NCBI GenBank assembly: GCA_024743255.1
Contig: JANSWY010000001.1
Span: 62,001-126,000 of the forward strand
Direction: 5' to 3'
From: a bacterium
GTDB taxonomy: Bacteria; Bacteroidota; Bacteroidia; Cytophagales; Cyclobacteriaceae
DNA length: 64,000 nucleotides
A program made the translations under genes and the position numbers. Position 1 is the first letter of the stretch. Each line of letters opens with the position of its first letter. Shown one piece after another: positions 21,181 through 33,926 of this stretch. The notes under the pieces are model-generated. The model was not told where the DNA came from. It was given only the letters and a program-made list of their open reading frames with translations, and made no database searches.

Positions 21181-23808
21181 TTACTCGTACCTCAAAGACT
21201 TAATCGGATTGGTACTTGAGGCTTTTAGCGTATGGTAAGCAATTGTCAACATAGCGATAATAAATGTTGCCAACCCTCCTGCTACGAACATCAATGGGTT
21301 TAGTGATACCCTGAAAGCATAACTATCCAACCATTCTGCCAGGAAGTAATAAGTAATTGGGGCGGCTACCAAGAATGATATCAGGATTAACCATGCGAAG
21401 TTTTTGGAGATTAACACCAATAACTGGGAATGTTGTGCTCCTAATACCTTTCTTATTCCTATTTCTTTGATTCTCCTTTCTACAGAAATTGCGGATAACC
21501 CGAATAACCCAAGACTACCAATCAAAATAGATAAGACCGCCATTATGGAAATTACAGAGCTCATTTGCTTATCAGATGTGTAGAGTTCTTCAAAATGCTC
21601 ATCCAAAAATGAATAAGTCAGTGGATAGCCAGGAACCATTTCTTCCCAGATTCTTTCTACATCGCTAATTCCAGCTTGTAGATTTTCCGGGCTCAGCTTA
21701 ATCGACATTTCATCATAATTCCACTCTGAATGCACGACCATGGATAGCGTGTTCACTTTGTAATGAAGAGAGTTAAAATTAAAATCCTTAGTTACTCCGA
21801 TGATAGTTCCGAGTGAGTCATTAGGATACCAGCTATGCCCTACACTTTGGCCGATTGGATCTTCATAACCAAGCTCTTTGGCAAATGACTCATTGATCAC
21901 AAATGCCAATCCGTCATCTTTTGCATAATCTTTGGAGAATCCTCTTCCTGCAATTAGCTCTATTCCATAAACATCCAGATAATCGAATTCTACAAGGACA
22001 TTAGATGGTGTTACATTTACAATTCCTGTGTCAACTGCCGCTTTGAATCCCCATTGGTGGAAGTTGTTTCCAAGTCTTTGTCCGGAGGCTGTAACCCCAA
22101 GTACACTACTACTTTTCAATAACTCCTGCTTCATTACATCGAATTTGTCATTTGCGGTTTGATTCATATCCACAAGGAGAATGTGGTCCTTGTCAAAACC
22201 AATATCCTTTGATTTCATAAAGTTCAATTGCTGAAGAACAACCAGGGTCGCCACAATCATGGCCAGTACCATGCTAAATTGTGTCACTATTAATGAGCTT
22301 CTAAAGATTGATTTCTTACCTGATTTCTCTATCCCCTTTAATACCTGAACTGTTTTGAACGAAGAAAGGTAAATGGATGGATAGAGTCCAGCTATGACGC
22401 CAAGGAACAGAGTCATTGCTATTACTGCCAGAATTACGGTTGTGCTATCCAATAATGAAAGCATTGATAATGTTCTTCCTATCAAATTATTGAGGAATGG
22501 AACGCTTATTACATCAATGATTACCGCAAATAATAACGCTATCAGGGCAAGTACAATGGATTCCGTCACAAACTGCCAGAAGAGTTGATTTCTCATGGCT
22601 CCAACAGATTTCCTCACACCCACTTCTTTGGCTCTTGCGCTAGACCTTGCAGTGGTGAGATTCATAAAGTTTACTGCTGCTATAATAATTATGAATATGC
22701 CTACCAAAGTGAAAATCTCAAGATATGATCCATTGAATTTTCTGTAGTTATGATAGTCATGTTCAATGTCCATGGAATTTAAGTGAACCTCACTAAGGGG
22801 CTGAAGAAATAATTTATAGTAATCGTTAACCTCTTCATTGCCAGTATTTCTCACCAGGTATTCTGGATATTTCTCAGCCATAGAGGATAAGTTGGCTCCC
22901 GGAACAAGTTCCAAATATGTGTTGAGGTAATTAGATCCAAACTCAGAATTAAAATCCGGGTTTTCTCTTGTGATTGAAAGCATAGACATCATGATGTCAA
23001 ATTGCATATGAGATGTCTCAGGAACATTCTCCAGAATCCCGGCAATTTTGAAACTCTCATCATCCAGTTTCAAGGTCTCTCCAATGATATCTATTGATCC
23101 AAAAATTGTCTTGGCCAGCTTTTCGGTAACCAGGATATTATTAGGTTCATTTAAAACAGTCTCTCTATCTCCACTTATCAAAGGAAAATCAAACAACTTG
23201 AGGAATGTACTATCAACTCTTGCTGTTACATCTACCTTGAATCGGTTATCTCCCTTCGTCCAAAGCCAGTTTCTTCTTGCGAAGTACCGGGTATAGCTTT
23301 TTACTTCTGGAAAATCAGCAAGGAAAGTTGGACCCATTCCTGGCATTGATAGCGCTACTTTTTGAGTATTTGTACCAGGGAAACTCTGTATTTCGCAGAG
23401 TCTATAAAGGTTATCCTTTCTCGAGTGCTGGCTATCAAACGCCTTTTCATCAGAAATGAATAAATAAATCACCAGGCACGCCGCTATTCCAATGGCGAGA
23501 CTTAGGATATTAATCGAAGTGTGAAATTTGTGCTTGGAAAGATTCCTAAACGCCACAAATAAATAGTTCTTGATCATGATTGTTGCTTTTGAGTATTTTG
23601 AGTTATATCGACGGATGGCGAATGGTCTTATATAATTGATTACCTGAAACCAGTAATTCTTATCGGCTTTAAACTTTGACCCTGCCGACAATAAGCGGTA
23701 ATGCTTTTCCTCCAGGTCTCCTGCAATTTCTTCAGCGAATTCTTCATTCAAGAACCAATCCAGTAGCCTGGATGCGAGTTTAGGCGGTGCTTGATGTTGA
23801 TTACTCAC
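21181..23808 (-). CDS. FtsX/MacB-type ABC transporter permease with prefix domain
   Basis: An 875-residue permease. The first 75 residues are a permease prefix domain 2 (LASRLLDWFLNEEFAEEIAG and a WFQVINYIRPF motif), then comes the MacB-type core: an initial membrane helix near residue 100 (NILSLAIGIAACLVIYLF), a large periplasmic domain, three helices with FMNLTTARSSARAKEVGVRK, a second periplasmic domain, and C-terminal helices with IKEIGIRKVLGAQ. Both FtsX coupling helices are present. No ATPase gene is near, so it must borrow one. The gene is preceded by a PadR regulator 9 bases upstream, the standard pair for this class, so the system is probably induced by a toxic compound. Confidence 0.92.
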   Translation of the reverse strand: MSNQHQAPPKLASRLLDWFLNEEFAEEIAGDLEEKHYRLLSAGSKFKADKNYWFQVINYIRPFAIRRYNSKYSKATIMIKNYLFVAFRNLSKHKFHTSINILSLAIGIAACLVIYLFISDEKAFDSQHSRKDNLYRLCEIQSFPGTNTQKVALSMPGMGPTFLADFPEVKSYTRYFARRNWLWTKGDNRFKVDVTARVDSTFLKLFDFPLISGDRETVLNEPNNILVTEKLAKTIFGSIDIIGETLKLDDESFKIAGILENVPETSHMQFDIMMSMLSITRENPDFNSEFGSNYLNTYLELVPGANLSSMAEKYPEYLVRNTGNEEVNDYYKLFLQPLSEVHLNSMDIEHDYHNYRKFNGSYLEIFTLVGIFIIIIAAVNFMNLTTARSSARAKEVGVRKSVGAMRNQLFWQFVTESIVLALIALLFAVIIDVISVPFLNNLIGRTLSMLSLLDSTTVILAVIAMTLFLGVIAGLYPSIYLSSFKTVQVLKGIEKSGKKSIFRSSLIVTQFSMVLAMIVATLVVLQQLNFMKSKDIGFDKDHILLVDMNQTANDKFDVMKQELLKSSSVLGVTASGQRLGNNFHQWGFKAAVDTGIVNVTPSNVLVEFDYLDVYGIELIAGRGFSKDYAKDDGLAFVINESFAKELGYEDPIGQSVGHSWYPNDSLGTIIGVTKDFNFNSLHYKVNTLSMVVHSEWNYDEMSIKLSPENLQAGISDVERIWEEMVPGYPLTYSFLDEHFEELYTSDKQMSSVISIMAVLSILIGSLGLFGLSAISVERRIKEIGIRKVLGAQHSQLLVLISKNFAWLILISFLVAAPITYYFLAEWLDSYAFRVSLNPLMFVAGGLATFIIAMLTIAYHTLKASSTNPIKSLRYE

Positions 23809-23817
23809 AATGAATGA

Positions 23818-24165
23818 TTATGCCAGTACAAATTTCAGCTTGCCTTCAGCAAATGCCGGGAATTGCTTCCACAGCGTCAATCGGAAATCCCGCACGTTAG
23901 CCAAAGCTCTGTGGCCACTTGCTGTGATGGAGTAGATACGCTTTCTTCTTCCACCTCTTTCAGCGGTTGCTCCTCCCATTTCTGAGGTTAGGAAACCTTT
24001 CTTTTCTAGTCTGTTGAGTGTAGTGTGTACTGCCCCAATTGCTACTTTTCTATCAGCTTGAGCTTCGTACTCTTCTGTGATATTGAGTGCGTAAGCCTTC
24101 TCTTCCAAAATTCCGACAATAAGCATGAGAACCTCTTCAAGTTCCCCTAATCTATTTTCTGACAT
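23818..24165 (-). CDS. PadR-family transcriptional regulator
   Basis: A 115-residue PadR repressor. The winged-helix reads LGELEEVLMLIVGILEEKAY, then IGAVHTTLNRLEKKGFLTSE (recognition helix) and RGGRRKRIYSITASGHRALA (wing). The PadR dimerisation tail is short, as in subfamily 2. The permease gene follows after nine bases and must be in the same transcript. Just upstream lies a perfect 15+15 base palindrome that overlaps the putative -7 element, so repression of its own operon is expected. Confidence 0.92.
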   Translation of the reverse strand: MSENRLGELEEVLMLIVGILEEKAYALNITEEYEAQADRKVAIGAVHTTLNRLEKKGFLTSEMGGATAERGGRRKRIYSITASGHRALANVRDFRLTLWKQFPAFAEGKLKFVLA

Positions 24166-24287: not shown

Positions 24288-25121
24288 ATGAGAATACTAT
24301 TAGTAATTTCGGCTCTAATTCTGGGTGTTTGGGATACTTCAAATACAAATCAAAATGGTTCCGGAAACTCGATTTATATAGGATTAGTTGATAAATTTTA
24401 CGATCAGGATGAGTTTCATGTCCCTCTGTTTTTCAAAGAAGGGTATGATTATGCAATTATAGATAAGTTAAAAGATTCAGACTCTAAAGTCATATTTAGA
24501 GGTGAATTCAGCAGGCGAACAAAGCTTTATGAATCGCAATGCAAGCTGTATTTGGAGAGTAAAAACCTGGATACTATGCTGGTACTTAACAAACTGCAAC
24601 AAGTTGTAGATACAGTTTTCAGAAATCACTTTGAACATTATGATGCTGAAATACAATCAAGTTTGATTGCTTCATACAAGATTGATCCAGGCAAAAAGCC
24701 CTTTATGCTAATCAGTAAGTCCGGTTTGAACAGGTCAGATTTGAAACCAGGGATTTCATTTACGGTTGATACTACTTATAGAAACAACGTATTAGAATCA
24801 AACAATCAATTTTCATCTTATTCATGGGCCTCTGGTAAGATGTCTGTGAATGACAATATTATTTCTTATACCTCATTTGGAGACTATAATGCAAGAAAGG
24901 AGTGTTTGTATTTCTACAAAAATGGCATTCCCACAGATTCAGTTATCAATGATTATTTGATTCGTGAATTATATCCTGTACCGATACAGGATTCTGATCA
25001 TATGTTATATATGGCATCAGGATTCCTCCCGGAAACAGATATCACATGGGATATGCTTATAGGAATTAATCCGGCAACTGGGAAAATCAAGTATTACAGA
25101 GGAAACAGGTTGAAACAGTAA
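24288..25121 (+). CDS. Hypothetical exported protein
   Basis: A 277-residue protein without a family I can name. The first 15 residues (MRILLVISALILGVW) form a short signal helix, followed by polar sequence, so it is probably exported or anchored. The body is a mixed alpha/beta domain with little repeat structure. It is divergent from the PadR operon, so its promoter shares the region with the PadR operator and could be influenced by it. The downstream PP2C-like gene follows 43 bases after its stop, on the same strand. Confidence 0.68.
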   Translation: MRILLVISALILGVWDTSNTNQNGSGNSIYIGLVDKFYDQDEFHVPLFFKEGYDYAIIDKLKDSDSKVIFRGEFSRRTKLYESQCKLYLESKNLDTMLVLNKLQQVVDTVFRNHFEHYDAEIQSSLIASYKIDPGKKPFMLISKSGLNRSDLKPGISFTVDTTYRNNVLESNNQFSSYSWASGKMSVNDNIISYTSFGDYNARKECLYFYKNGIPTDSVINDYLIRELYPVPIQDSDHMLYMASGFLPETDITWDMLIGINPATGKIKYYRGNRLKQ

Positions 25122-25164
25122 TACATTTCATATTTTTGTGATACCCTGTGCTTGCAGGGATTGC

Positions 25165-25902
25165 ATGAACATATACACACTACTACAAATTGGAGAATTC
25201 CATATCAACCATTGTGAAGATTTTCTAATAACCGAACCAATCGGGACTAACAAACAGGTCATAGCCGTATTTGATGGCTGTACGATGGGAAGAGAATCCG
25301 TTTTTGCCTCCATACTTTATGGGAAAGTCATCCGAAACACTGCGCGGAAGTTCTATAATCAAAGTTTTATAGAAAGATCTGAATGGGATCCTAAGTCGAT
25401 TCTAAAGGCACTTTTTCAGGAGACGTTTACCCAGCTTGCATCTTTAAAAAATAATCTGGGATTGGATACAGATGAATTGTTATCAACCGCTGTTGTTGGA
25501 ATAATTGATGAAGAAAAAAGACAAGGGAAATTCTTAACAGTTGGTGATGGACTAATTTTCCATGATGGAGTATCACATGAATTTGAGCAAGAAGACAAAC
25601 CTGATTATTTAGGTTACCATCTTGGCGAAGAGTTTGACAGCTGGTATTCTAAGCAAACGCAGTTTCTTGAAATAAATGAATTCCAGGATTTGTCGATTTG
25701 CACTGATGGAATTTTCACATTTAAAAATCTTTCCCGGAGTAATAATCAATTGAGTGAGCAAGACATTATTGATCACTTTCTGGTGAACAATGAACACTCA
25801 GAGAATAATAATTTTCTGGAAAGAAAGGTAAGAATGTTAAAGGACGAATTAGATTATGTAGTGACTGATGATTTGGCTATCGTGAGAATAATGCTCCAAT
25901 AA
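25165..25902 (+). CDS. PP2C-like protein phosphatase
   Basis: A 245-residue PPM/PP2C-type domain from the ATG at 25165; a GTG at 25138 adds nine residues but reads poorly. Marks of the fold are FLITEPIG and VIAVFDGCTMG (Asp of the VFDG motif), LLSTAVVGIIDEE, TVGDGLIFHDG and DLSICTDGIFTF, which place the metal-binding aspartates in order. It is a stand-alone phosphatase that would act on Ser/Thr phosphate in the cytoplasm. The chain has no other domain. Neighbour is the hypothetical exported gene upstream. Confidence 0.87.
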   Translation: MNIYTLLQIGEFHINHCEDFLITEPIGTNKQVIAVFDGCTMGRESVFASILYGKVIRNTARKFYNQSFIERSEWDPKSILKALFQETFTQLASLKNNLGLDTDELLSTAVVGIIDEEKRQGKFLTVGDGLIFHDGVSHEFEQEDKPDYLGYHLGEEFDSWYSKQTQFLEINEFQDLSICTDGIFTFKNLSRSNNQLSEQDIIDHFLVNNEHSENNNFLERKVRMLKDELDYVVTDDLAIVRIMLQ

Positions 25903-25976: not shown

Positions 25977-27101
25977 TTATTTAAACTTATACGTCAGTCC
26001 GGTTTCAACCAACGAATTAAAGTATCCCCTGAATCCCCTTGCAGCTGGGTCAGGGTTGTTAGATAATCTGTCAACTACATTAAGCTTTGTATATCCCTGA
26101 ATTTTTGATGTTACTTCATAAGTCATTTTTACATTGGTACGGATGTATTGATAAACCAATTGTAAATCATCGTTATCCTCCCCAGGTGTAAGTCCTGGAT
26201 AATATCTATATGAATATCTGAGCGATGCATCTATTCCAATTTTACCAAAATCAGAACTCCACTTCACACCAGGAGATGCTTCGTGATAAGTATTGGTTTG
26301 TGCCTGGTCTAGTCTGGAGATTTGGTATAAACCAAAGGTCATGCTTCTTGAGTCCTTCTTATTACTGAATTCGACACTGTTCCTAAGGAAATTCCAGTTT
26401 CTGGTTTTCTCTTCTAGTTCACCATCAGAATCGAATTCCAGTTCTTCATATGTTCTCAATTGAAGCCCGGAGTTGAATGTAAGTTTCTGAACTGATGACC
26501 CAACCCATTTTTTCGAAAAGCTCACAGTTGCAAACGGAGATTTGTAAACCAGTGCCTCCTCCTCAATCATTCTATCATAATGCTTATACAAATACCCAAC
26601 CTGAGTCTTAACCCACATCTTATTCCCCATATAAAAATCAAAATGCAAAGGCAGATATAATCTCCCAAAGGAGAAAGGAGTCCTCAGCACAGCATCCGCA
26701 ATGTTTACCCCTTCTCTCTTTAAGCGCTGATACTCCGGGGCAAATTCGAAGTATTTCTTACTATTGTATTTTGTTCTGTAAGAAGCCTTCAGATAATATT
26801 CAAATCTGTTCGCATCATTTTGAGTCTGGTATATTCCCAGGCTTCCATTTGCGACAAGCTTGAGGCGATGTTCGCCTTTCTCAATTTTCCAGGAGTTCTT
26901 TGAAGATAAAGACTGGAAAGTGCCATTATCCCAAAGATCGAATCGATCAAGTTCCTCTTCTTCGGATTCCAGATAGGATGGGTTAAGGAAGACATTCCAT
27001 TCATGGCCCAGTCCCACTCCTACGCTGTTGTTACTGGTTGTTTGTGCAAATAGAGATTGTGTGATGTAGAAGGTTATAGCTAGTGTGATTAACTTTTTCA
27101 T
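25977..27101 (-). CDS. Predicted outer-membrane beta-barrel protein
   Basis: A 374-residue protein of unknown family with a signal peptide (MKKLITLAITFYITQSLFAQ). The mature part is made of alternating strands with aromatic girdles, such as YYLKASYRTKYNSKKYFEF and RNSVEFSNKKDSRSMTFGLY, and ends in ETGLTYKFK, an aromatic C-terminal strand typical of outer-membrane barrels. The start codon overlaps the stop of the upstream 58-residue gene (ATGA). It is the last gene of an operon with a transglutaminase-like membrane protein and an ATP-grasp ligase, so it is probably the outer-membrane partner or product target of that system. Confidence 0.75.
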   Translation of the reverse strand: MKKLITLAITFYITQSLFAQTTSNNSVGVGLGHEWNVFLNPSYLESEEEELDRFDLWDNGTFQSLSSKNSWKIEKGEHRLKLVANGSLGIYQTQNDANRFEYYLKASYRTKYNSKKYFEFAPEYQRLKREGVNIADAVLRTPFSFGRLYLPLHFDFYMGNKMWVKTQVGYLYKHYDRMIEEEALVYKSPFATVSFSKKWVGSSVQKLTFNSGLQLRTYEELEFDSDGELEEKTRNWNFLRNSVEFSNKKDSRSMTFGLYQISRLDQAQTNTYHEASPGVKWSSDFGKIGIDASLRYSYRYYPGLTPGEDNDDLQLVYQYIRTNVKMTYEVTSKIQGYTKLNVVDRLSNNPDPAARGFRGYFNSLVETGLTYKFK

Positions 27102-27274
27102 TTTTTACTGATGATTTGTAGAGCCTGAAGCTCAGTTGTTTCTTGTTGATTTTCTTTTTTTGAAAGTTTGATTTCCAGTTTGTTGGAGCTTTCAAAGTGA
27201 TTGTCTGCTATCGCTAATGAGAATAATCCCAGCAATATGATTAAGTATGGGGTTCCAAATTTTTTAAGTTTCAT
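27098..27274 (-). CDS. 58-residue membrane peptide of the ATP-grasp operon
   Basis: A short gene (58 residues) joined by ATGA overlaps on both sides: its ATG at 27274 overlaps the ligase stop, and its stop overlaps the barrel-gene ATG. The chain begins MKLKKFGTPYLIILLGLFSL, one membrane helix or signal, then an outside tail rich in Lys, Glu, Gln and Ser (NKLEIKLSKKENQQETTEL) and ends in IISKK. No family is known. The tight coupling implies it is made in fixed ratio with both neighbours. It could be a substrate, a tag peptide or a chaperone; the sequence does not decide. Confidence 0.85.
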   Translation of the reverse strand: MKLKKFGTPYLIILLGLFSLAIADNHFESSNKLEIKLSKKENQQETTELQALQIISKK

Positions 27275-28152
27275 GATTTTGATTGTTGTTGTTTAATGAC
27301 TGATTTTAATCCTTGTTTATTCGCCAGCTGTATTCCTAATCCGGGCCTCACATTCACTTCCATGACCATTGGGCCAAGGTGCTCATCAATGACCAGATCA
27401 ACTCCAATGAAATTGAGTGGAAAGTGTCTAGCAGTTTCTATCGAAAGGGTCAGAATATCCAACCAATATGGCAATACCACCCCTTCGATTTTATTACCAC
27501 TATCAGGATGGGTTTTCATGAAGTTTTTGCCATCATAAGCTTCCTTGAGCTTACCATTGACCATGTTCACTCCAATTCCCAAACCTCCCTGGTGAAGGTT
27601 GGCTTTACCACCAGATTGGTTGGTTGGCATTCTAAGCATGGCCATAATTGGCTCCTGATCCAGGACTATTACTCTGATATCCGGTACGCCATCATTATAG
27701 ATTTCCTTAAAACAGGGGTGCGGCCTAACGTAAGATTCAATTAATGCCACATCGTTATCACCAAAAGAAAATATCCCGAAAATGATATTAGCAATATGTG
27801 TGAAGATGTGGTTCTCTGCTATGACCTGCCCCCCTTTGTACCACAGACCCTGCTGTTTCTTAAGAATCATAATGCCTTTGCCTCCAGCACCTTTCGCAGG
27901 TTTGATAACCAATTCATTCCATTGGCTCACTACATTCCAGGTCTCCTCAATTTCCGCTACACTAGAGATACAGGCATATGTTTTTGGACAAGCAATTCCG
28001 TTTTGTTCCAGAATCTCTTTTGCGAGATACTTGTCGTCTGCGTATTTGTAATTTCTCTTGGGATTATTGGGGTAAATCAACTCCAAATTCCTCTGGTTCA
28101 ATCCCATCACCTGCTGGTGAATGGATCGAAGTTTATTCCATATTTTGATCAT
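27271..28152 (-). CDS. RimK-like ATP-grasp ligase (alpha-L-glutamate ligase-like)
   Basis: A 293-residue ATP-grasp enzyme, the type named alpha-L-glutamate ligase-like and known to occur beside 7TM-transglutaminase genes. Marks are ELVIKPAKGAGGKGIMIL (ATP lid), VALIESYVRPHP, PDIRVIVLDQEPIMAML, the substrate region GGKANLHQGGLGIGVNM, and the Mg/ATP motif PMVMEVNVRPGLGIQLAN. It should join an amino acid or peptide to a carboxylate using ATP, in the cytoplasm. Partner genes on both sides suggest an envelope peptide-modifying system. The small peptide gene starts at its stop by ATGA overlap, and the transglutaminase gene ends nine bases upstream. Confidence 0.9.
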   Translation of the reverse strand: MIKIWNKLRSIHQQVMGLNQRNLELIYPNNPKRNYKYADDKYLAKEILEQNGIACPKTYACISSVAEIEETWNVVSQWNELVIKPAKGAGGKGIMILKKQQGLWYKGGQVIAENHIFTHIANIIFGIFSFGDNDVALIESYVRPHPCFKEIYNDGVPDIRVIVLDQEPIMAMLRMPTNQSGGKANLHQGGLGIGVNMVNGKLKEAYDGKNFMKTHPDSGNKIEGVVLPYWLDILTLSIETARHFPLNFIGVDLVIDEHLGPMVMEVNVRPGLGIQLANKQGLKSVIKQQQSKS

Positions 28153-28161
28153 GATGATTGA

Positions 28162-29703
28162 TTATGAGTTTAAGACTTTTGCAAATCGATGGTATTCCAG
28201 CACTCTTAGTCCAAGCCATTTTCCCAGTTTCAGACTTAGACCCGCGACAATAAGAATCGACTCTGGGAAAGTGACCACAAAATGCTGTAGATAATCAGCT
28301 GCTAGTATAAAGTAGATTAATACCGTTACCAGTGCAGTACTTAGAAAAAGCGTAACCGCTGCAATCAGTCCTTCTTCTTCTACTTTCTTGGCAAACTTTT
28401 CACTGATGATTGTGAGAATGATTATTGGAAAGAACAATGGTGTAGTTGGGTCCAGCCATTGTGTTTGGTGTAACAGTTTGATTGCCAACAAGGCGGTAAC
28501 AACTACTGCAATCAGCATCAAACCAATCTTTGCATTGTATTGAACTCCCAGCTTCTCCAGAGGAAAGTTTACTAATGAAACTACCATCACAAGGCTTGAG
28601 AAAAGTATTAGTCCGGAAACAAGTCCGGTTTTAAGCAATATCAGACTGATCAACACTGGAAGAAATACTCCATAAGTTTTTATTCCCACTACATTCTTGA
28701 ATATCGCTACCAGAAAAGCGCCAATTGGAAGTAGTAGCAACACTTTCATCATACCGAAAGGAAGATTTGCTTCATCAATTAATCCCCATAGGTTGAAAGA
28801 AGAGTATTTAGTATAATTATTGACTCTCTTTTGTTCAATCACGTAGTTGTAATCAAATTCCAGATCAGCGCTTCTTTTGATCAGGAATTCATCTCCTGTA
28901 TATAATTGCATGTAGTGAGAAGGAAGGAATGCAAAGTGTCCATTCAATGCGTCAAATGGCACCCAGTGACCTTCAATCATAATTTCAACCCATAGGTGAG
29001 AAGTCCTCTTAGTGGTTTCCTCAAGAATTAAACCTCCTGTCACTCTTGCCGGAATTCCTTTGTTTCTGCACAACGCAACAAGTAATCGACTTTTGCCATT
29101 GCAGGATGCCTTTTGGTTTTCATAAGCCATGACTGCATCTGTGAGCTCACTGGTTTTTGCCGATGGAATTTCATTCACGTAGTTGAAAAACGAAGTGATA
29201 ACGTCATTCAGATACTTTTGATCAGCAGCTAAAGAATCTGCAAGTGCTGCTATTCTCTCATCCTGAGACTGAATAAGTTCCGTAGGTTCAGTATAATCGG
29301 CGAATAACCGAGAATAAATTTCAACCTTTGGAATCTCAGGCCCTAGCTGGTATGAAAGGTCCATTCCGGAATAGTCAAAAGAGAAAGTGATATGCTGACT
29401 GCTATCCAGGAACCCTTCCCACCGGGCCAATTTATTTTCTCCCTTTAAAAGAATCGTGCTGGGAGAATCCGTTTCTGAGGATAGCATGATTTGCTGTCTT
29501 TTATTATTGACAGGCAAGTAGCTATCTACTTTGTAATTTCCATCTCCCGCGAGATCAAACTGATAAGTGATTGTGTAGTTATGCGATGGGGTTAGGTCTT
29601 CATCGTTTGAATTAACATAAACCCGCAACAGAATCATGAAGATTGGGCATAATATTAACGTAGCTGCGATGATATTTACCGTTTTATGATGATTCATTTT
29701 CAT
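28162..29703 (-). CDS. Transglutaminase-7TM membrane protein with intact catalytic triad
   Basis: A 513-residue protein: one N-terminal membrane helix (about 9-27), an extracytoplasmic region with a beta-rich part to 130 and a transglutaminase-like domain at about 140-270, then six or seven membrane helices from about 320 to the end. The Pfam families for this plan are called inactive transglutaminase with 7TM, but here Cys201 (QKASCNGKSRLL), His236 (TSHLWVEI) and Asp251 (PFDALNG) form a complete Cys-His-Asp set. It precedes a RimK-like ligase by nine bases, matching the recurrent gene pair. A zinc protease, often the third member elsewhere, is not present. Confidence 0.9.
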   Translation of the reverse strand: MKMNHHKTVNIIAATLILCPIFMILLRVYVNSNDEDLTPSHNYTITYQFDLAGDGNYKVDSYLPVNNKRQQIMLSSETDSPSTILLKGENKLARWEGFLDSSQHITFSFDYSGMDLSYQLGPEIPKVEIYSRLFADYTEPTELIQSQDERIAALADSLAADQKYLNDVITSFFNYVNEIPSAKTSELTDAVMAYENQKASCNGKSRLLVALCRNKGIPARVTGGLILEETTKRTSHLWVEIMIEGHWVPFDALNGHFAFLPSHYMQLYTGDEFLIKRSADLEFDYNYVIEQKRVNNYTKYSSFNLWGLIDEANLPFGMMKVLLLLPIGAFLVAIFKNVVGIKTYGVFLPVLISLILLKTGLVSGLILFSSLVMVVSLVNFPLEKLGVQYNAKIGLMLIAVVVTALLAIKLLHQTQWLDPTTPLFFPIIILTIISEKFAKKVEEEGLIAAVTLFLSTALVTVLIYFILAADYLQHFVVTFPESILIVAGLSLKLGKWLGLRVLEYHRFAKVLNS

Positions 29704-29830
29704 TTAATTTTCACCTATATCCGGTAATTCAGAATTCACCCCACCCTCTTTAAAAAAAATTTATTTGATCTTCCTGCTTTATATTTAATCAGTCATATTT
29801 GACGTTCATCTATTCTATAATTATTGTCCT

Positions 29831-30346
29831 TTGACAGAAGACAACAAAAATGACGTTTGCCATGAGTCTGTGTATGAGAGGCTCTTCAGAGATTTAGCTC
29901 CTAACCTTCGCAGCTTTCTGATCTTTAAGTTCAGAAATGTAGAGAGGGCTGAGGATATGGTGCAGGAAGCGTTCTACATCATGTGGCAAAACTGTAAGAA
30001 GGTCTCGCAGGAATTGGCTAAGGCCTATTTATATCGGGTGGCCCAAAATCAATTCATTAAACTTCTGGATAAAGACAAAGTCCGTTCAAAGTACATTTCA
30101 CTTCAGGATGAGCAATTAGATGATCAGGATCCTAGTTTTGAATTGGAGTATCAGGAAATGAGATCCAATCTATTGAGTGCCATTGATCAATTGCCGGAAG
30201 GTCAGCGAGAGGTGTTTTTGATGAATAGAATGGATAAACTCACTTATGTGGAAATAGCGGAAGTTTTAGGTGTGAGCGTAAAGGCTGTGGAGAAAAGAAT
30301 GCACAAGGCTTTGGTGAAGCTGAGAAAACTTTGTAAAAATATTTGA
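29831..30346 (+). CDS. ECF-family RNA polymerase sigma factor
   Basis: A 171-residue sigma-70 of the ECF group, starting at TTG 29831 because no in-frame ATG precedes conserved sequence. Region 2 shows LAPNLRSFLIFKFRNVERAEDMVQEAFYIMW broken over residues 22-52 and region 4 shows LPEGQREVFLMNRMDKLTY followed by EIAEVLGVSVKAVEKRMHKAL, the helix-turn-helix that reads the -35 element. It belongs to the FecI-like class that works with FecR and a TonB receptor, both encoded downstream. The gene is divergent from the transglutaminase operon across 127 bases. Confidence 0.9.
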   Translation: MTEDNKNDVCHESVYERLFRDLAPNLRSFLIFKFRNVERAEDMVQEAFYIMWQNCKKVSQELAKAYLYRVAQNQFIKLLDKDKVRSKYISLQDEQLDDQDPSFELEYQEMRSNLLSAIDQLPEGQREVFLMNRMDKLTYVEIAEVLGVSVKAVEKRMHKALVKLRKLCKNI

Positions 30347-30390
30347 TAAAGGGGGTAGGGTGTGTTGAAAACAGACGTATATAAGGTCAA

Positions 30391-31320
30391 ATGAACTGGG
30401 AAAACGATGAAACATATTTAAGTCGGTGGCTCAATGATGAGCTGAATGCACAGGAGAAAGAAGCTTTTGAAAATTCTCCTGAGGGGAAAGAATTCATTGC
30501 TTTGATCAAGGCTTCTGAAGATCTTAGAATGTCTGACTACAATGTTGATTCCGCTTTAGATGGGCTCAGAGATAAAATCGATAATCACGAAGCTCCGAAG
30601 CAAAAGCAAATCTGGTTCAATCCAATATTTCAGATTGGTAGTGCTGCTGCAGTGTTGATCATTGCTTTTTTTGTATTTCTCTATCCAGATGGTGATACTT
30701 CAGTTGTTACCGCTTTTGGGCAGCAGGAGGTTGTTAATCTGCCAGATGGGTCTACCGTGAGGTTGAATGCCAACAGTCAGCTTTCTTATGATGAAGATGA
30801 ATTCCTTAATGATAGGTTACTCAAATTAGAAGGAGAAGCTTTTTTTGAAGTTGAAAAAGGATCTAAGTTTCAGGTAAATACTGATATAGGAACAATCCAG
30901 GTTTTGGGAACCAGTTTTAATGTGAAATCAAGACCGGAGCAGTTTGAGGTACTTTGTTTTACTGGAAAGGTTCAAGTTGATGCTAGTAGCCAGACTACAA
31001 TTCTTACAAAAGGACTTTCTGCGGTACTCAAGAATAATACTTTGGAAACATCCAATCACACTGGAGAATCTGAACCTGGTTGGTTAAAGGGAATTATCAC
31101 ACTTAATGATGTATCAGTTCAAACTGCGCTATCTGAATTAACCAATCAATTCGGAATTGAAATTACGGTGGAGGCACCAATGAATCAGATGCAGTATACT
31201 GGTTCGTTCCCAACTTCCAATGCAAAATCAGCTGTATCACTAGTACTAGATCCATTGAATATTAGTTATACTTACAATCATCAGGAAAAATCATTGGTGA
31301 TTCATGGTATAAATGAATGA
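30391..31320 (+). CDS. FecR-like anti-sigma factor
   Basis: A 309-residue FecR-type transmembrane regulator. Residues 1-75 form the cytoplasmic anti-sigma part, a membrane helix lies at about 83-102 (GSAAAVLIIAFFVFLYP), and the periplasmic FecR core holds VVNLPDGSTVRLNANSQL, LKLEGEAFFEVEKG and VLGTSFNVKSR. The C-terminal region (about 225-305) is the DUF4974-type domain with YTGSFPTSNAKSAVSLVL, which resembles the STN fold and docks the receptor. Its stop overlaps the receptor start codon (ATGA). It should hold the upstream sigma factor until the TonB receptor signals substrate. Confidence 0.92.
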   Translation: MNWENDETYLSRWLNDELNAQEKEAFENSPEGKEFIALIKASEDLRMSDYNVDSALDGLRDKIDNHEAPKQKQIWFNPIFQIGSAAAVLIIAFFVFLYPDGDTSVVTAFGQQEVVNLPDGSTVRLNANSQLSYDEDEFLNDRLLKLEGEAFFEVEKGSKFQVNTDIGTIQVLGTSFNVKSRPEQFEVLCFTGKVQVDASSQTTILTKGLSAVLKNNTLETSNHTGESEPGWLKGIITLNDVSVQTALSELTNQFGIEITVEAPMNQMQYTGSFPTSNAKSAVSLVLDPLNISYTYNHQEKSLVIHGINE

Positions 31321-33926
31321 TTCGATACGCTACTCTACTTATACTGCTACTCCCATTTTCAATATTTGCTCAAACCAATATCTCTTTCCAGGCAAATAAC
31401 AAGCCCCTTATTGAGGTTTTCAAACAGCTTGAGAAAGAATACGAGTTGTATTTCGCTTATTCTACCGAGCAGATTTCGGAGATTGAAGTTTCCATTGATG
31501 CCGACAATGAAACTCTGGATGCATTTCTAAAGCGATTGCTGGAGCCGGTTGGTTTTTCATATGAATTACTGGAAGGGAAGTTTGTTGCCATCAAAAGCAA
31601 AGCAAGTGTTGTTATCAACCTGCAGATTATTGATAAGGAAAGTTCAGAGCCCCTTTCTTTTGCATTGGCTCAAATCAAAGGCACTCAAAAAGGAGCTATT
31701 GCTGATCAGGATGGTCGATTTAACACTGTTTGGAAAGGTTCCGCAGCTGATACTATTGTATTTTCTTTCCTGGGATATGAGGATTTGGAAGTTCCAATCG
31801 GTCAGATTGAATCCATGGGGAAGAAGTTGGAAATGACGTTTGCCAATCAAAAACTTGGGGAATATGTGGTGCAAGAATATATCAATACAGGGATTACTTC
31901 CACTAGTCTTAACAATGGAATTTCCATCACTCCGGATGATTTAGATATTCTCCCGGGACTTGCTGAAAGAGATGTCTTATTATCCGCTCAGCAGATTGCA
32001 GGAGTGAGTTCAAATGATGAATCTGCAGCTGGAATCAATATCAGAGGAAGCTCAAGAGCCAATACTTTTATCTATTGGAACAACATTCCCATTTATCATC
32101 CTGCGCACTATTTTGGGAATATCTCTTCTTTTATTCCTTCAACAATTGGGCAGGTCAATGTTTATAAGAATTTCATCCCAACAGAATTTGGCGGATCAAG
32201 CGCTGGATTGATCACCATGACTTCCAAGGTAAATGAGAACAGAAAATTTACCGGGGAAGCGAGTTTAAACCTAACTCATGCTGATCTGATGCTTTCTACT
32301 CCAGTTGGTGAAAAGAGCTCTTTGATGTTTGCTACAAGAAGGTCATTTAATGATTTCTTGGCCACTCCAACATTCAATTCATTAAGCGAGAAACTATTTG
32401 AAGGTAGCATCACACAGTCTGTGCAGGAGGAAATCAATGAGGATGAAGATTTCCAATATAATAGCAAACTAGCATTCACTGACTTTAATGTGGTTTGGGA
32501 CTTAAACCCAAGTGACCGGACCAACATCAGATTTAGTGCTCTAAGATCGGAGAGCGTTTTGGATTTCAATACGATCGATGATGAAGAGCTTAACGAATCA
32601 GATCAAACGCATAATATCACCAACCTGGGAGGAAATATAACCTGGAATCAGAATTGGAGTAGCTCATATTCAAGCCAATTGAGCGGTTCTGTCGCCAGAT
32701 ATAATATGGAATACCAACTATTCAATTTCAGGGATAATGATGATGGCAGTGATGGTGATTTTCAATCGAGGTTTAATGAATTTACGAATGTTGAGATTCG
32801 ATTTACCAACAATCTTGAGTTAAGTGACAGGCACCTTCTTACATTCGGAGCACAATACAATTTTCTGGATTTGAACTTTTCAATTAATGAGGATTTCTTT
32901 TTTGAAGAGGAATATGATGAAGCTATAATCAGCAGTGGCAACACGTTTGGGGCTTTTGCGAAATCTGAGAATAGAATTGGTGATAAGCTGGAATCCGTTT
33001 TATCCGCCAGGTTTAATTACTTTCCGATTTTGGGAGAATATGTAATTGATCCACAATTGAGAATTCAATATGCTTTGACCAACGACTTATTTCTGAAAAC
33101 CTCAGTTGGCAAATACCATCAATATATCAATACCATCCAGGAACCCGAATTTAATTTTTCCAACACCATCGAGCAGCATTGGATTACTGCAGATGAAGAT
33201 GAAGGAATACCAGTTTTGTCAAATACTCAATTTGTAGTTGGAGCGTATTTTGAAAAGAAAGGGTGGCTAATCGATCTGGACCTTTTCCAAAAACGGGTAG
33301 ATGGTATTCTGTCTAGAAGAATTTTTAGTCTGGAACTTGATGAAGGCCTGCAGATTGGAAATGAAACAATCCTGGGACTTGATCTCATGATCCGAAAAAG
33401 ATGGAAATATCTAAGAACCTGGATCAACTACAGCCACCTCGACTCAGATGTGGAAATCCCCGAATCGGAACTATTTGGATTTAGCTCCAACACCAGCATC
33501 CGTCACCAGATGCAAATCACACAAACCGCTACGACTAAAAATCTGGAGTTGTCATTGGGTTATACCTTCAGAACAGGTCCGTTTTTCACGAATGCTGTAG
33601 GCTTGGATTTTATAAGTGATCCTGATGGTGAAGATCCAGATGAATTTGAACCCTACTATGAAATAGAATATGGACCAATCAACGAAGAATTACTACCCAA
33701 CTACCACAGAATAGACCTTTCCGCCTGGTACAAGCTCCCAAAAACCAAAACCCGAAATTTTCACACAGAATTTGGCCTGACAATCTTAAACGTCCTCAAC
33801 CGAACCAATGTATTCACCAGATCCTTCAGAGTTGAGGAATTTGAAAATGAGAATGTGGGGATATTGGAGAGTGAGAAGTATTTGATTGGGATCGCTCCGA
33901 ATTTGAGTATGAGGGTTAGGTTTTAG
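31317..33926 (+). CDS. TonB-dependent receptor with STN domain (signalling type)
   Basis: An 869-residue outer-membrane receptor. After a signal peptide (MIRYATLLILLLPFSIFAQ) come an STN domain at about 25-90 (secretin/TonB N-terminal, for talking to FecR), a carboxypeptidase-regulatory-like strand domain at about 95-170, the plug at about 200-305 (LSAQQIAGVSSNDESAAGIN), and a 22-strand barrel to the end, closing with LSMRVRF. The STN plus FecR plus sigma order makes this a self-regulated uptake system. No SusD-like partner gene is present, so the substrate is more likely a siderophore, cofactor or peptide than a polysaccharide; that is inference. Confidence 0.93.
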   Translation: MIRYATLLILLLPFSIFAQTNISFQANNKPLIEVFKQLEKEYELYFAYSTEQISEIEVSIDADNETLDAFLKRLLEPVGFSYELLEGKFVAIKSKASVVINLQIIDKESSEPLSFALAQIKGTQKGAIADQDGRFNTVWKGSAADTIVFSFLGYEDLEVPIGQIESMGKKLEMTFANQKLGEYVVQEYINTGITSTSLNNGISITPDDLDILPGLAERDVLLSAQQIAGVSSNDESAAGINIRGSSRANTFIYWNNIPIYHPAHYFGNISSFIPSTIGQVNVYKNFIPTEFGGSSAGLITMTSKVNENRKFTGEASLNLTHADLMLSTPVGEKSSLMFATRRSFNDFLATPTFNSLSEKLFEGSITQSVQEEINEDEDFQYNSKLAFTDFNVVWDLNPSDRTNIRFSALRSESVLDFNTIDDEELNESDQTHNITNLGGNITWNQNWSSSYSSQLSGSVARYNMEYQLFNFRDNDDGSDGDFQSRFNEFTNVEIRFTNNLELSDRHLLTFGAQYNFLDLNFSINEDFFFEEEYDEAIISSGNTFGAFAKSENRIGDKLESVLSARFNYFPILGEYVIDPQLRIQYALTNDLFLKTSVGKYHQYINTIQEPEFNFSNTIEQHWITADEDEGIPVLSNTQFVVGAYFEKKGWLIDLDLFQKRVDGILSRRIFSLELDEGLQIGNETILGLDLMIRKRWKYLRTWINYSHLDSDVEIPESELFGFSSNTSIRHQMQITQTATTKNLELSLGYTFRTGPFFTNAVGLDFISDPDGEDPDEFEPYYEIEYGPINEELLPNYHRIDLSAWYKLPKTKTRNFHTEFGLTILNVLNRTNVFTRSFRVEEFENENVGILESEKYLIGIAPNLSMRVRF

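Follow-up and report, generated by a model that had tools for sequence, protein, structure and literature searches.

A four-gene operon encoding a transglutaminase-seven-transmembrane (TGase-7TM) protein, an ATP-grasp ligase, a 58-amino-acid membrane peptide and a predicted outer-membrane beta-barrel was identified at positions 25977-29703 (minus strand) of a 64,000-nucleotide stretch of a Cyclobacteriaceae genome (GenBank assembly GCA_024743255.1, contig JANSWY010000001.1, positions 62,001 to 126,000), hereafter called the window. The operon is real, and the module that it forms with a regulator trio at 29831-33926 (plus strand) recurs in Bacteroidota. The preferred reading, to which a probability of roughly 0.4 was assigned, is that the operon is a trans-envelope machine that would make a poly-amino-acid and export the product to the cell surface; the residue polymerised is guessed to be glutamate or another acidic one of that kind. 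The features concerned are:

28162-29703, minus strand: TGase-7TM gene, encoding a 513-amino-acid predicted inner-membrane protein (PF01841, E 5.8e-16; PF14402, E 1.2e-36)
27271-28152, minus strand: ATP-grasp ligase gene, encoding a cytosolic protein of 293 amino acids (PF14397, E 4.6e-69)
27098-27274, minus strand: open reading frame (ORF) of the 58-amino-acid, single-span membrane peptide, overlapping both adjoining genes by 4 nt
25977-27101, minus strand: barrel gene, encoding 374 amino acids modelled as an outer-membrane beta-barrel
29721-29745, minus strand: promoter-like motif upstream of the TGase gene, reading GGTGGGGT-N13-CCGG
29831-30346, plus strand: extracytoplasmic function (ECF) sigma factor gene (PF08281, E 2.4e-18), divergent from the operon
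30391-31320, plus strand: FecR-type anti-sigma factor gene (PF04773, E 1.7e-20)
31317-33926, plus strand: TonB-dependent receptor-like gene with STN, CarboxypepD_reg and Plug domains, likely a FecA-like signal transducer

All four operon genes lie where a first-pass annotation, made from the sequence letters, had placed them. The ATGA joins that it described are present as 4-nt overlaps at the ligase/peptide and peptide/barrel junctions, and the TGase and ligase genes are 9 nt apart. The regulators and the intact catalytic triad of the TGase had been missed. The host assembly is a 6.6-Mb draft in 192 contigs, estimated to be 100% complete, in which the 7TM domain, the ligase and the barrel each matched once. 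Neither the peptide nor the barrel has a Pfam match at E<=1, and the lone NCBIfam match of the peptide (E 0.029) is at chance level. The operon is not a product of chance, because a second genome of the same family, G003, has an identical gene order that includes a peptide of 58 amino acids; there a contig end falls within the barrel gene, and the remainder of a barrel is found on a second contig.

Relatives were collected by scanning named genomes with the TGase active-site region. The scan gave 168 relatives, of which 80 loci (L041-L120) form the set used here. They were chosen by two TGase active-site patterns, which favours proteins with an intact active site; nine further loci were found by other routes. 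An earlier scan of named genomes with the whole TGase had given 32 candidates, none of which was confirmed. By their titles the 80 loci are mostly Cytophagales, Flavobacteriaceae, Saprospiraceae and other Bacteroidota, together with three Spirochaetes, four Myxococcales or Deltaproteobacteria and one Caldithrix. The resulting set of 89 TGases, in which two contigs are counted twice (L035/L045 and L033/L062), falls into 40 clusters at 60% identity, one of which, largely Aquimarina, takes 24 of the 89. Profiles for the other genes of the loci were built from nine seed loci.

The ligase gene adjoins the TGase gene in 78 of the 80 loci, and in the other two (L046 and L090) the contig ends first. 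Iyer et al. (2009), writing on amidoligases, are the likely source of this pairing. Conservation of the barrel beside the pair, on which the first-pass annotation had made its proposal depend, was borne out in 61 of the 65 loci with at least 2.6 kb of sequence downstream. The sigma factor, FecR and receptor genes are all present in 51 of the 67 loci whose upstream sequence spans 4.6 kb or more, and the trio belongs to the module. Counted by 60%-identity TGase clusters, the barrel is nearby in 29/33 and the regulators in 18/33.

The genes also co-occur at the level of whole genomes. Among 59 genomes, the host included, strong ligase matches were found in the host and G003, with weak matches in 15 others, and the barrel was found in the same two. 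Two draws of 395 genomes from the phylum were taken as one identical set, as inferred from their size and shared handles; counted among the matches listed, PF14402 exceeded its cut-off in six (G000, G253, G309, G134, G231 and G258), with a weak seventh match in G127. These six were also the genomes with strong matches (E <= 3.3e-39) to a barrel profile built from 37 sequences, whose five weaker matches, 5e-5 to 8e-4, fell in other genomes. An identical six-genome set would arise by chance with a probability near 2e-13 if the genomes were independent, which they are not, as three belong to one family. Of 92 genomes from the family of G134, 5 were over the 7TM cut-off. This patchy distribution resembles that of an accessory module.

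The TGase-7TM protein consists of an N-terminal helix, a predicted periplasmic domain of the TGase/cysteine-protease fold and the 7TM domain (PF14402). The catalytic triad is Cys201-His236-Asp251 in the window and is found in 85 of the 89 aligned TGases (79/80 of those chosen by pattern and 6/9 of those found by other routes). The Cys is absent at the aligned column in L031, L034 and L039, all three among the nine loci found by other routes, although L034 has a Cys two residues before it, and the Asp is absent in L118. Judged from these residues, enzyme activity would be usual but not universal. The structural model (predicted local distance difference test, pLDDT, 88.3; predicted template modelling score, pTM, 0.72) matches over residues 40-296 the entry 3isr, a putative cysteine protease of Cytophaga hutchinsonii (Z 23.5, root-mean-square deviation (rmsd) 3.0, 249 residues aligned); human transglutaminase 3 also matches, at Z 11.2. 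For the 7TM part a weak match to RnfE (8ahx_E; Z 8.4, rmsd 3.6, 126 aligned) lies under the safe level for helical bundles.

Several variants of this protein were seen. In L034 (7809-9350) and L039 (7125-8672) the catalytic Cys, and in L039 also the His, is replaced in an operon whose peptide and barrel genes are intact, an apparent loss of activity like that described for RloB of Pseudomonas. In L031 (3036-5306, genome G309) the TGase-7TM protein and the ATP-grasp ligase are fused into one protein of 756 amino acids with a shortened TGase core that is without the Cys, and the barrel gene adjoins; this fusion supports direct contact of the ligase and the 7TM protein. Kinship of the 7TM domain with CapC/PgsC was considered and is not claimed: the motifs look alike by eye, hhalign probabilities are about 1% or below, and with all HMMER filters off the best E was 0.0088 among 87 sequences. 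The CapC family PF14102 has no match in the host genome, and three loci with weak matches to it (L124-L126) are, as judged from two of them, likely transporters of another family.

The ligase scores 284 bits against TIGR02291 (alpha-L-glutamate ligase-like), below the 314-bit cut-off, and matches the RimK-type family PF08443 at E 1.4e-11. Residues K84, E265 and N267 are invariant across six aligned ligases, that of the window included. No glycosyltransferase domain was found by Pfam in the four operon proteins, the place of such an enzyme being occupied by the ligase. For the barrel, the predicted outer-membrane fold was upheld by a model with 16 long strands (our own count from the DSSP line), pLDDT 93.4 and pTM 0.85, and the N-terminus resembles a signal peptide by eye. 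The structure search with this model does not single out AlgE, PgaA, BcsC or PelB. The modelled fold supports an outer-membrane pore of no particular class, since its matches are 16-18-strand porins in general.

In an alignment of 26 peptides, each 52-83 residues long, a brief positively charged start, often with K-S/P-x-x-P-Y, and one membrane span are common to all, and the tails vary. The peptide occurs in 22 of the 80 loci, in Cytophagales, Balneola, Saprospiraceae and some Flavobacteriales; its conservation beside the pair, on which the earlier proposal also depended, is only partial, with no significant match in the two largest TGase clusters, considered below. In place of the peptide, the ligase gene is followed in L092, L100, L103, L115, L119, in Spirochaetes and in two loci of Deltaproteobacteria by a gene for a protein with an N-terminal span and a length of 625-997 residues (in L114 the gene after the ligase is cut by the contig end). 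All seven of these long proteins that were tested are tetratricopeptide repeat (TPR) proteins by Pfam, and TPR was found in 9/9 tested when long proteins inside or beside the operon are taken together. L072 and L086, both Saprospiraceae, carry directly upstream of the TGase gene a TPR protein of 339 or 342 amino acids, and a peptide profile run against 771 ORF N-termini gave two significant matches, to the TPR proteins of L072 and L086 (2.1e-6 and 3.7e-7).

By these sequence comparisons the peptide is a short form of a family that also anchors TPR proteins. The link to the L072 and L086 proteins is seen in the profile matches, and kinship with the larger TPR proteins is judged from their position and topology. 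The peptide thus looks like a subunit, since its anchor is conserved, its tail is variable, and the same family or position is a TPR protein elsewhere. In two Spirochaete loci (L107:5713-7551 and L110:2146-3987) a protein of 612 or 613 amino acids overlaps the TGase start and has sub-threshold TPR matches; the C-terminal half of the L107 protein is strand-rich by eye, and this protein may be a fusion of TPR and barrel of the kind known from PgaA or BcsC.

The promoter-like consensus motif GGTAGGGT-N13-CCTGTTnTA lies ahead of the TGase gene. Its strict first box is found in 60 of the 89 loci, against 0.025 per equal-size stretch of the same DNA with the sites themselves counted. The motif is present in 55/60 loci with a sigma factor gene within 9 kb and in 4/25 without one, in related genomes whose loci are non-independent; this count of 85 leaves out L033 and L035 as second copies and L111 and L116, which have <300 nt upstream. 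The motif keeps to the TGase gene both where the regulators lie downstream (L032, L033 and L040) and where they lie upstream on the same strand (L069, L090 and L113). In G134 the barrel gene is absent beside the TGase gene and was found on another contig (L160:5188-6306), where GGTAGGGT-N13-ACTGTTTTAT begins 56 nt before its start codon. The barrel is therefore tied to the operon by regulation besides position.

The host genome contains four exact GGTRGGGT-N13-CCKG sites, and reversed-pattern controls gave 0 and 0. One of the four belongs to this operon, and two lie inside ORFs and look like chance. The fourth begins 51 nt upstream of an ORF that by eye encodes a haem-peroxidase-like lipoprotein (L148:1204-2442, G000:C51), a possible second target of the sigma factor. 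The sigma, FecR and Plug domains of the trio exceed their Pfam cut-offs, and the STN domain of the receptor, at 26.3 bits, is just under 28.4. From the correlation of motif and regulators we infer that the trio switches the operon on through the motif. An ECF sigma factor, FecR and an STN-bearing TonB-dependent receptor are shared with FecIRA signalling, but the trio of the module seems to control the ligase/barrel operon and not iron or glycan uptake.

The closest characterised relative is the rloABC operon of Pseudomonas aeruginosa, in which a TGase-type 7TM protein likewise lies beside a cytosolic ATP-grasp ligase (PMC12239564). The TGase-7TM protein of the window matches the RloB family NF052267 at E 6.7e-30, with 104 bits against a cut-off of 900. 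The TGase triad is present here, whereas RloB is described as inactive, and the module is mainly found in Bacteroidota, whereas 96% of RloB matches are reported from Proteobacteria (PMC12239564). A peptide/TPR subunit, a 16-strand barrel and the ECF/FecR/TonB trio are added in the module, and no retropepsin was found in the host genome. The first-pass annotation had held that the pair recurs, often with a zinc protease that is here replaced by extra genes. The recurrence, the extra genes and the missing protease were all supported, and the partner that it had called a zinc protease is a retropepsin-like aspartic protease to which Pfam gives that label (PMC12239564). The retropepsin family PF05618 has no match in the 192-contig draft of the host and matches in 2 of 14 control genomes; the intact TGase may therefore do the cutting carried out by RloA. 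PF14400 also had no match in the host genome, which is uninformative because the control matched nowhere either.

As generally understood, and by PMC9384988 and PMC9734138, synthase-dependent exopolysaccharide systems share the overall plan proposed for the module: cytosolic or inner-membrane synthesis, a periplasmic TPR scaffold (in the module, for the long forms), a periplasmic modifying or cutting enzyme and an outer-membrane barrel. The TPR part of the module differs in being N-terminally anchored, 58 residues long in the window, or missing, and for the barrel kinship to AlgE, PgaA or BcsC does not emerge, generic porins ranking first. The module also has an ATP-grasp ligase and not the glycosyltransferase of these systems, which is of family 2 and often under the control of cyclic di-GMP. 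PgsBCA(E)/CapBCA resembles the module in combining an amide ligase with a polytopic membrane protein and, in some operons, a very small membrane protein. PgsB has a Mur-ligase-like fold whereas the module ligase is an ATP-grasp enzyme, and the 7TM domain is not significantly related to CapC. The ligase is of the RimK type, only distantly similar in sequence to RimK itself; RimK and RimB differ from the module in acting on the ribosomal protein RpsF and in having no membrane parts, RimK being predicted to be cytosolic.

The export mechanism favoured here assigns a tentative role to each part, and a tentative product and direction of transport to the whole. As its family suggests, the ligase would polymerise amino acids in the cytosol, and the 7TM domain may then take the chain across the inner membrane. 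The predicted periplasmic TGase-fold cysteine enzyme, probably active in most members, would trim, transfer or crosslink the chain and so replace RloA of Pseudomonas. The 58-amino-acid peptide, as a reduced membrane-anchored TPR protein, might help the complex cohere, and the modelled 16-strand barrel would form the outer-membrane exit. Control would lie with the dedicated ECF sigma/FecR/TonB-receptor trio acting via the consensus motif. The whole would resemble the export of alginate, poly-N-acetylglucosamine (PNAG) or Pel, with the ligase replacing the glycosyltransferase.

In its favour are the fixed set of parts, their co-occurrence across genomes, the TPR proteins in or beside the operon, the 16-strand barrel model, the motif and the conserved triad, and background from several studies is consistent with this proposal. 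RloA cleaves polyglutamate in vitro, and in Pseudomonas lacking all three retropepsins the removal of rloB or rloC rescues the hypoosmotic defect fully and other defects partly (PMC12239564). A rescue of this kind would be expected if polymer left in the periplasm did harm, and alginate offers a parallel: AlgL clears polymer from the periplasm and is required for viability during alginate production (PMC8829089). Poly-alpha-L-glutamate is described as the product of RimK (PMC11957791). Each of the operons for PNAG, alginate, cellulose and Pel includes a gene for a TPR protein associated with the outer membrane (PMC9384988), and AlgE, AlgK and AlgX have been proposed as a modification and secretion complex (PMC9734138).

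A number of observations weigh against export of a poly-amino-acid. Four loci (L107, L110, L112 and L116) are without this barrel family, and 16 of 67 are without the regulators. In the two largest TGase clusters (34 loci, mostly Aquimarina and Allomuricauda-like) the best match to the peptide has an E of 0.63, and the peptide appears dispensable there because no significant profile match was obtained. Searches with the peptide profile against the larger TPR proteins gave an E of 0.78 for L092 and, in another search, 0/9; these proteins are also N-terminally anchored and not outer-membrane-associated. Enzyme activity is not always needed, since L031, L034 and L039 keep the operon without the catalytic Cys, and the export reading requires no active enzyme in every member. 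The hhalign score of the 7TM domain against CapC (PF14102), 16.6, was reached by 12 of 150 block shuffles. The best structural matches of the barrel are generic 16-18-strand porins, with AlgE at Foldseek rank 48, and no residue of the ligase shows which substrate is joined.

Among the alternatives, the one that survives best is envelope homeostasis of the Rlo kind without export. The ligase would add glutamates to an envelope component or make periplasmic chains, these glutamate chains would tune osmotic tolerance and wall synthesis, and the barrel would be an accessory osmoporin; we regard this as unlikely. Both morphology and resistance to ampicillin depend in part on RloB and RloC, which also show genetic interactions with the proteases needed for hypoosmotic tolerance (PMC12239564), and the porins that match the barrel include an osmoporin. 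In Shewanella, disruption of a gene for a 7TM protein with an inactive TGase raises vesicle production and changes size uniformity (PMC12096838), an effect that hints at an envelope role, fits simple envelope maintenance equally and is neutral between the readings. The Pseudomonas operon as described, however, has three genes and no barrel, TPR protein or ECF trio (PMC12239564), and the barrel gene of the module carries the promoter motif even when unlinked from the ligase pair.

Modification of the surface is improbable. Under this alternative the TGase-fold enzyme would join ligase-made peptides to proteins or glycans bound for the outer membrane or the surface, and the fold can indeed transfer as well as cleave, 3isr being only a putative protease and transglutaminase 3 matching at Z 11.2; the triad is moreover intact in 85/89 TGases of a set biased in its favour. 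The same fold cannot tell a protease from a transferase, however, and among the genes of the module none looked like a conserved acceptor. Uptake, in which the barrel and the TonB receptor would import acidic peptides for processing by the ligase and TGase, draws on the receptor-like protein within the trio, but we give it very little credence, as that receptor travels with sigma and FecR in the manner of FecIRA signalling and an ATP-using ligase is not a catabolic step. An equally small chance was left to the peptide as substrate, a tag or a precursor like those of ribosomally synthesized and post-translationally modified peptides (RiPPs) that the ligase would modify, the TGase cut and the barrel export: the small gene does overlap the ligase and barrel genes, and TGase-like proteases mature some peptides, but the 26 peptides share the N-terminal anchor alone, with no conserved leader followed by a conserved or repeated core as in RiPP precursors, the tail varies in sequence and length, many loci have no peptide, and the same family is fused to TPR repeats. 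The suggestion of the first-pass annotation that the pair builds or attaches a peptide tag was accordingly set aside in favour of a subunit-like role.

In Pseudomonas the rlo genes bear on antibiotic resistance, biofilm and osmotic survival, where the product of RloB and RloC is reported as not known (PMC12239564). To this picture the Bacteroidota module adds a predicted periplasmic enzyme that keeps its catalytic residues, a putative scaffold, a probable way out through the outer membrane and a switch of its own, and the added parts therefore yield a concrete and testable idea of product and route. Literature searches of titles and abstracts returned no paper describing this Bacteroidota module. 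A wider proposal, which we put forward with some hesitation, is that such modules may be machines by which Gram-negative cells secrete amino-acid polymers made without the ribosome, doing for poly-amino-acids what alginate or cellulose export does for polysaccharides; Rlo of Pseudomonas would then be a reduced or divergent branch of this machine. If export is correct, amino-acid polymers would join the substrates of exopolysaccharide-style export, and function-guided names could be given to the 16-strand barrel family and the small-peptide family, neither of which has a Pfam match.

Two neighbouring regions of the window were also noted. Converging on the end of the operon, at 24288-25902 on the plus strand, are genes for a 277-amino-acid protein without a Pfam match and a PP2C/SpoIIE-type phosphatase (PF13672, E 2.5e-10). 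At 21181-24165 on the minus strand a MacB/FtsX-type ABC permease-like protein is encoded behind a PadR-like regulator, both as judged by eye.

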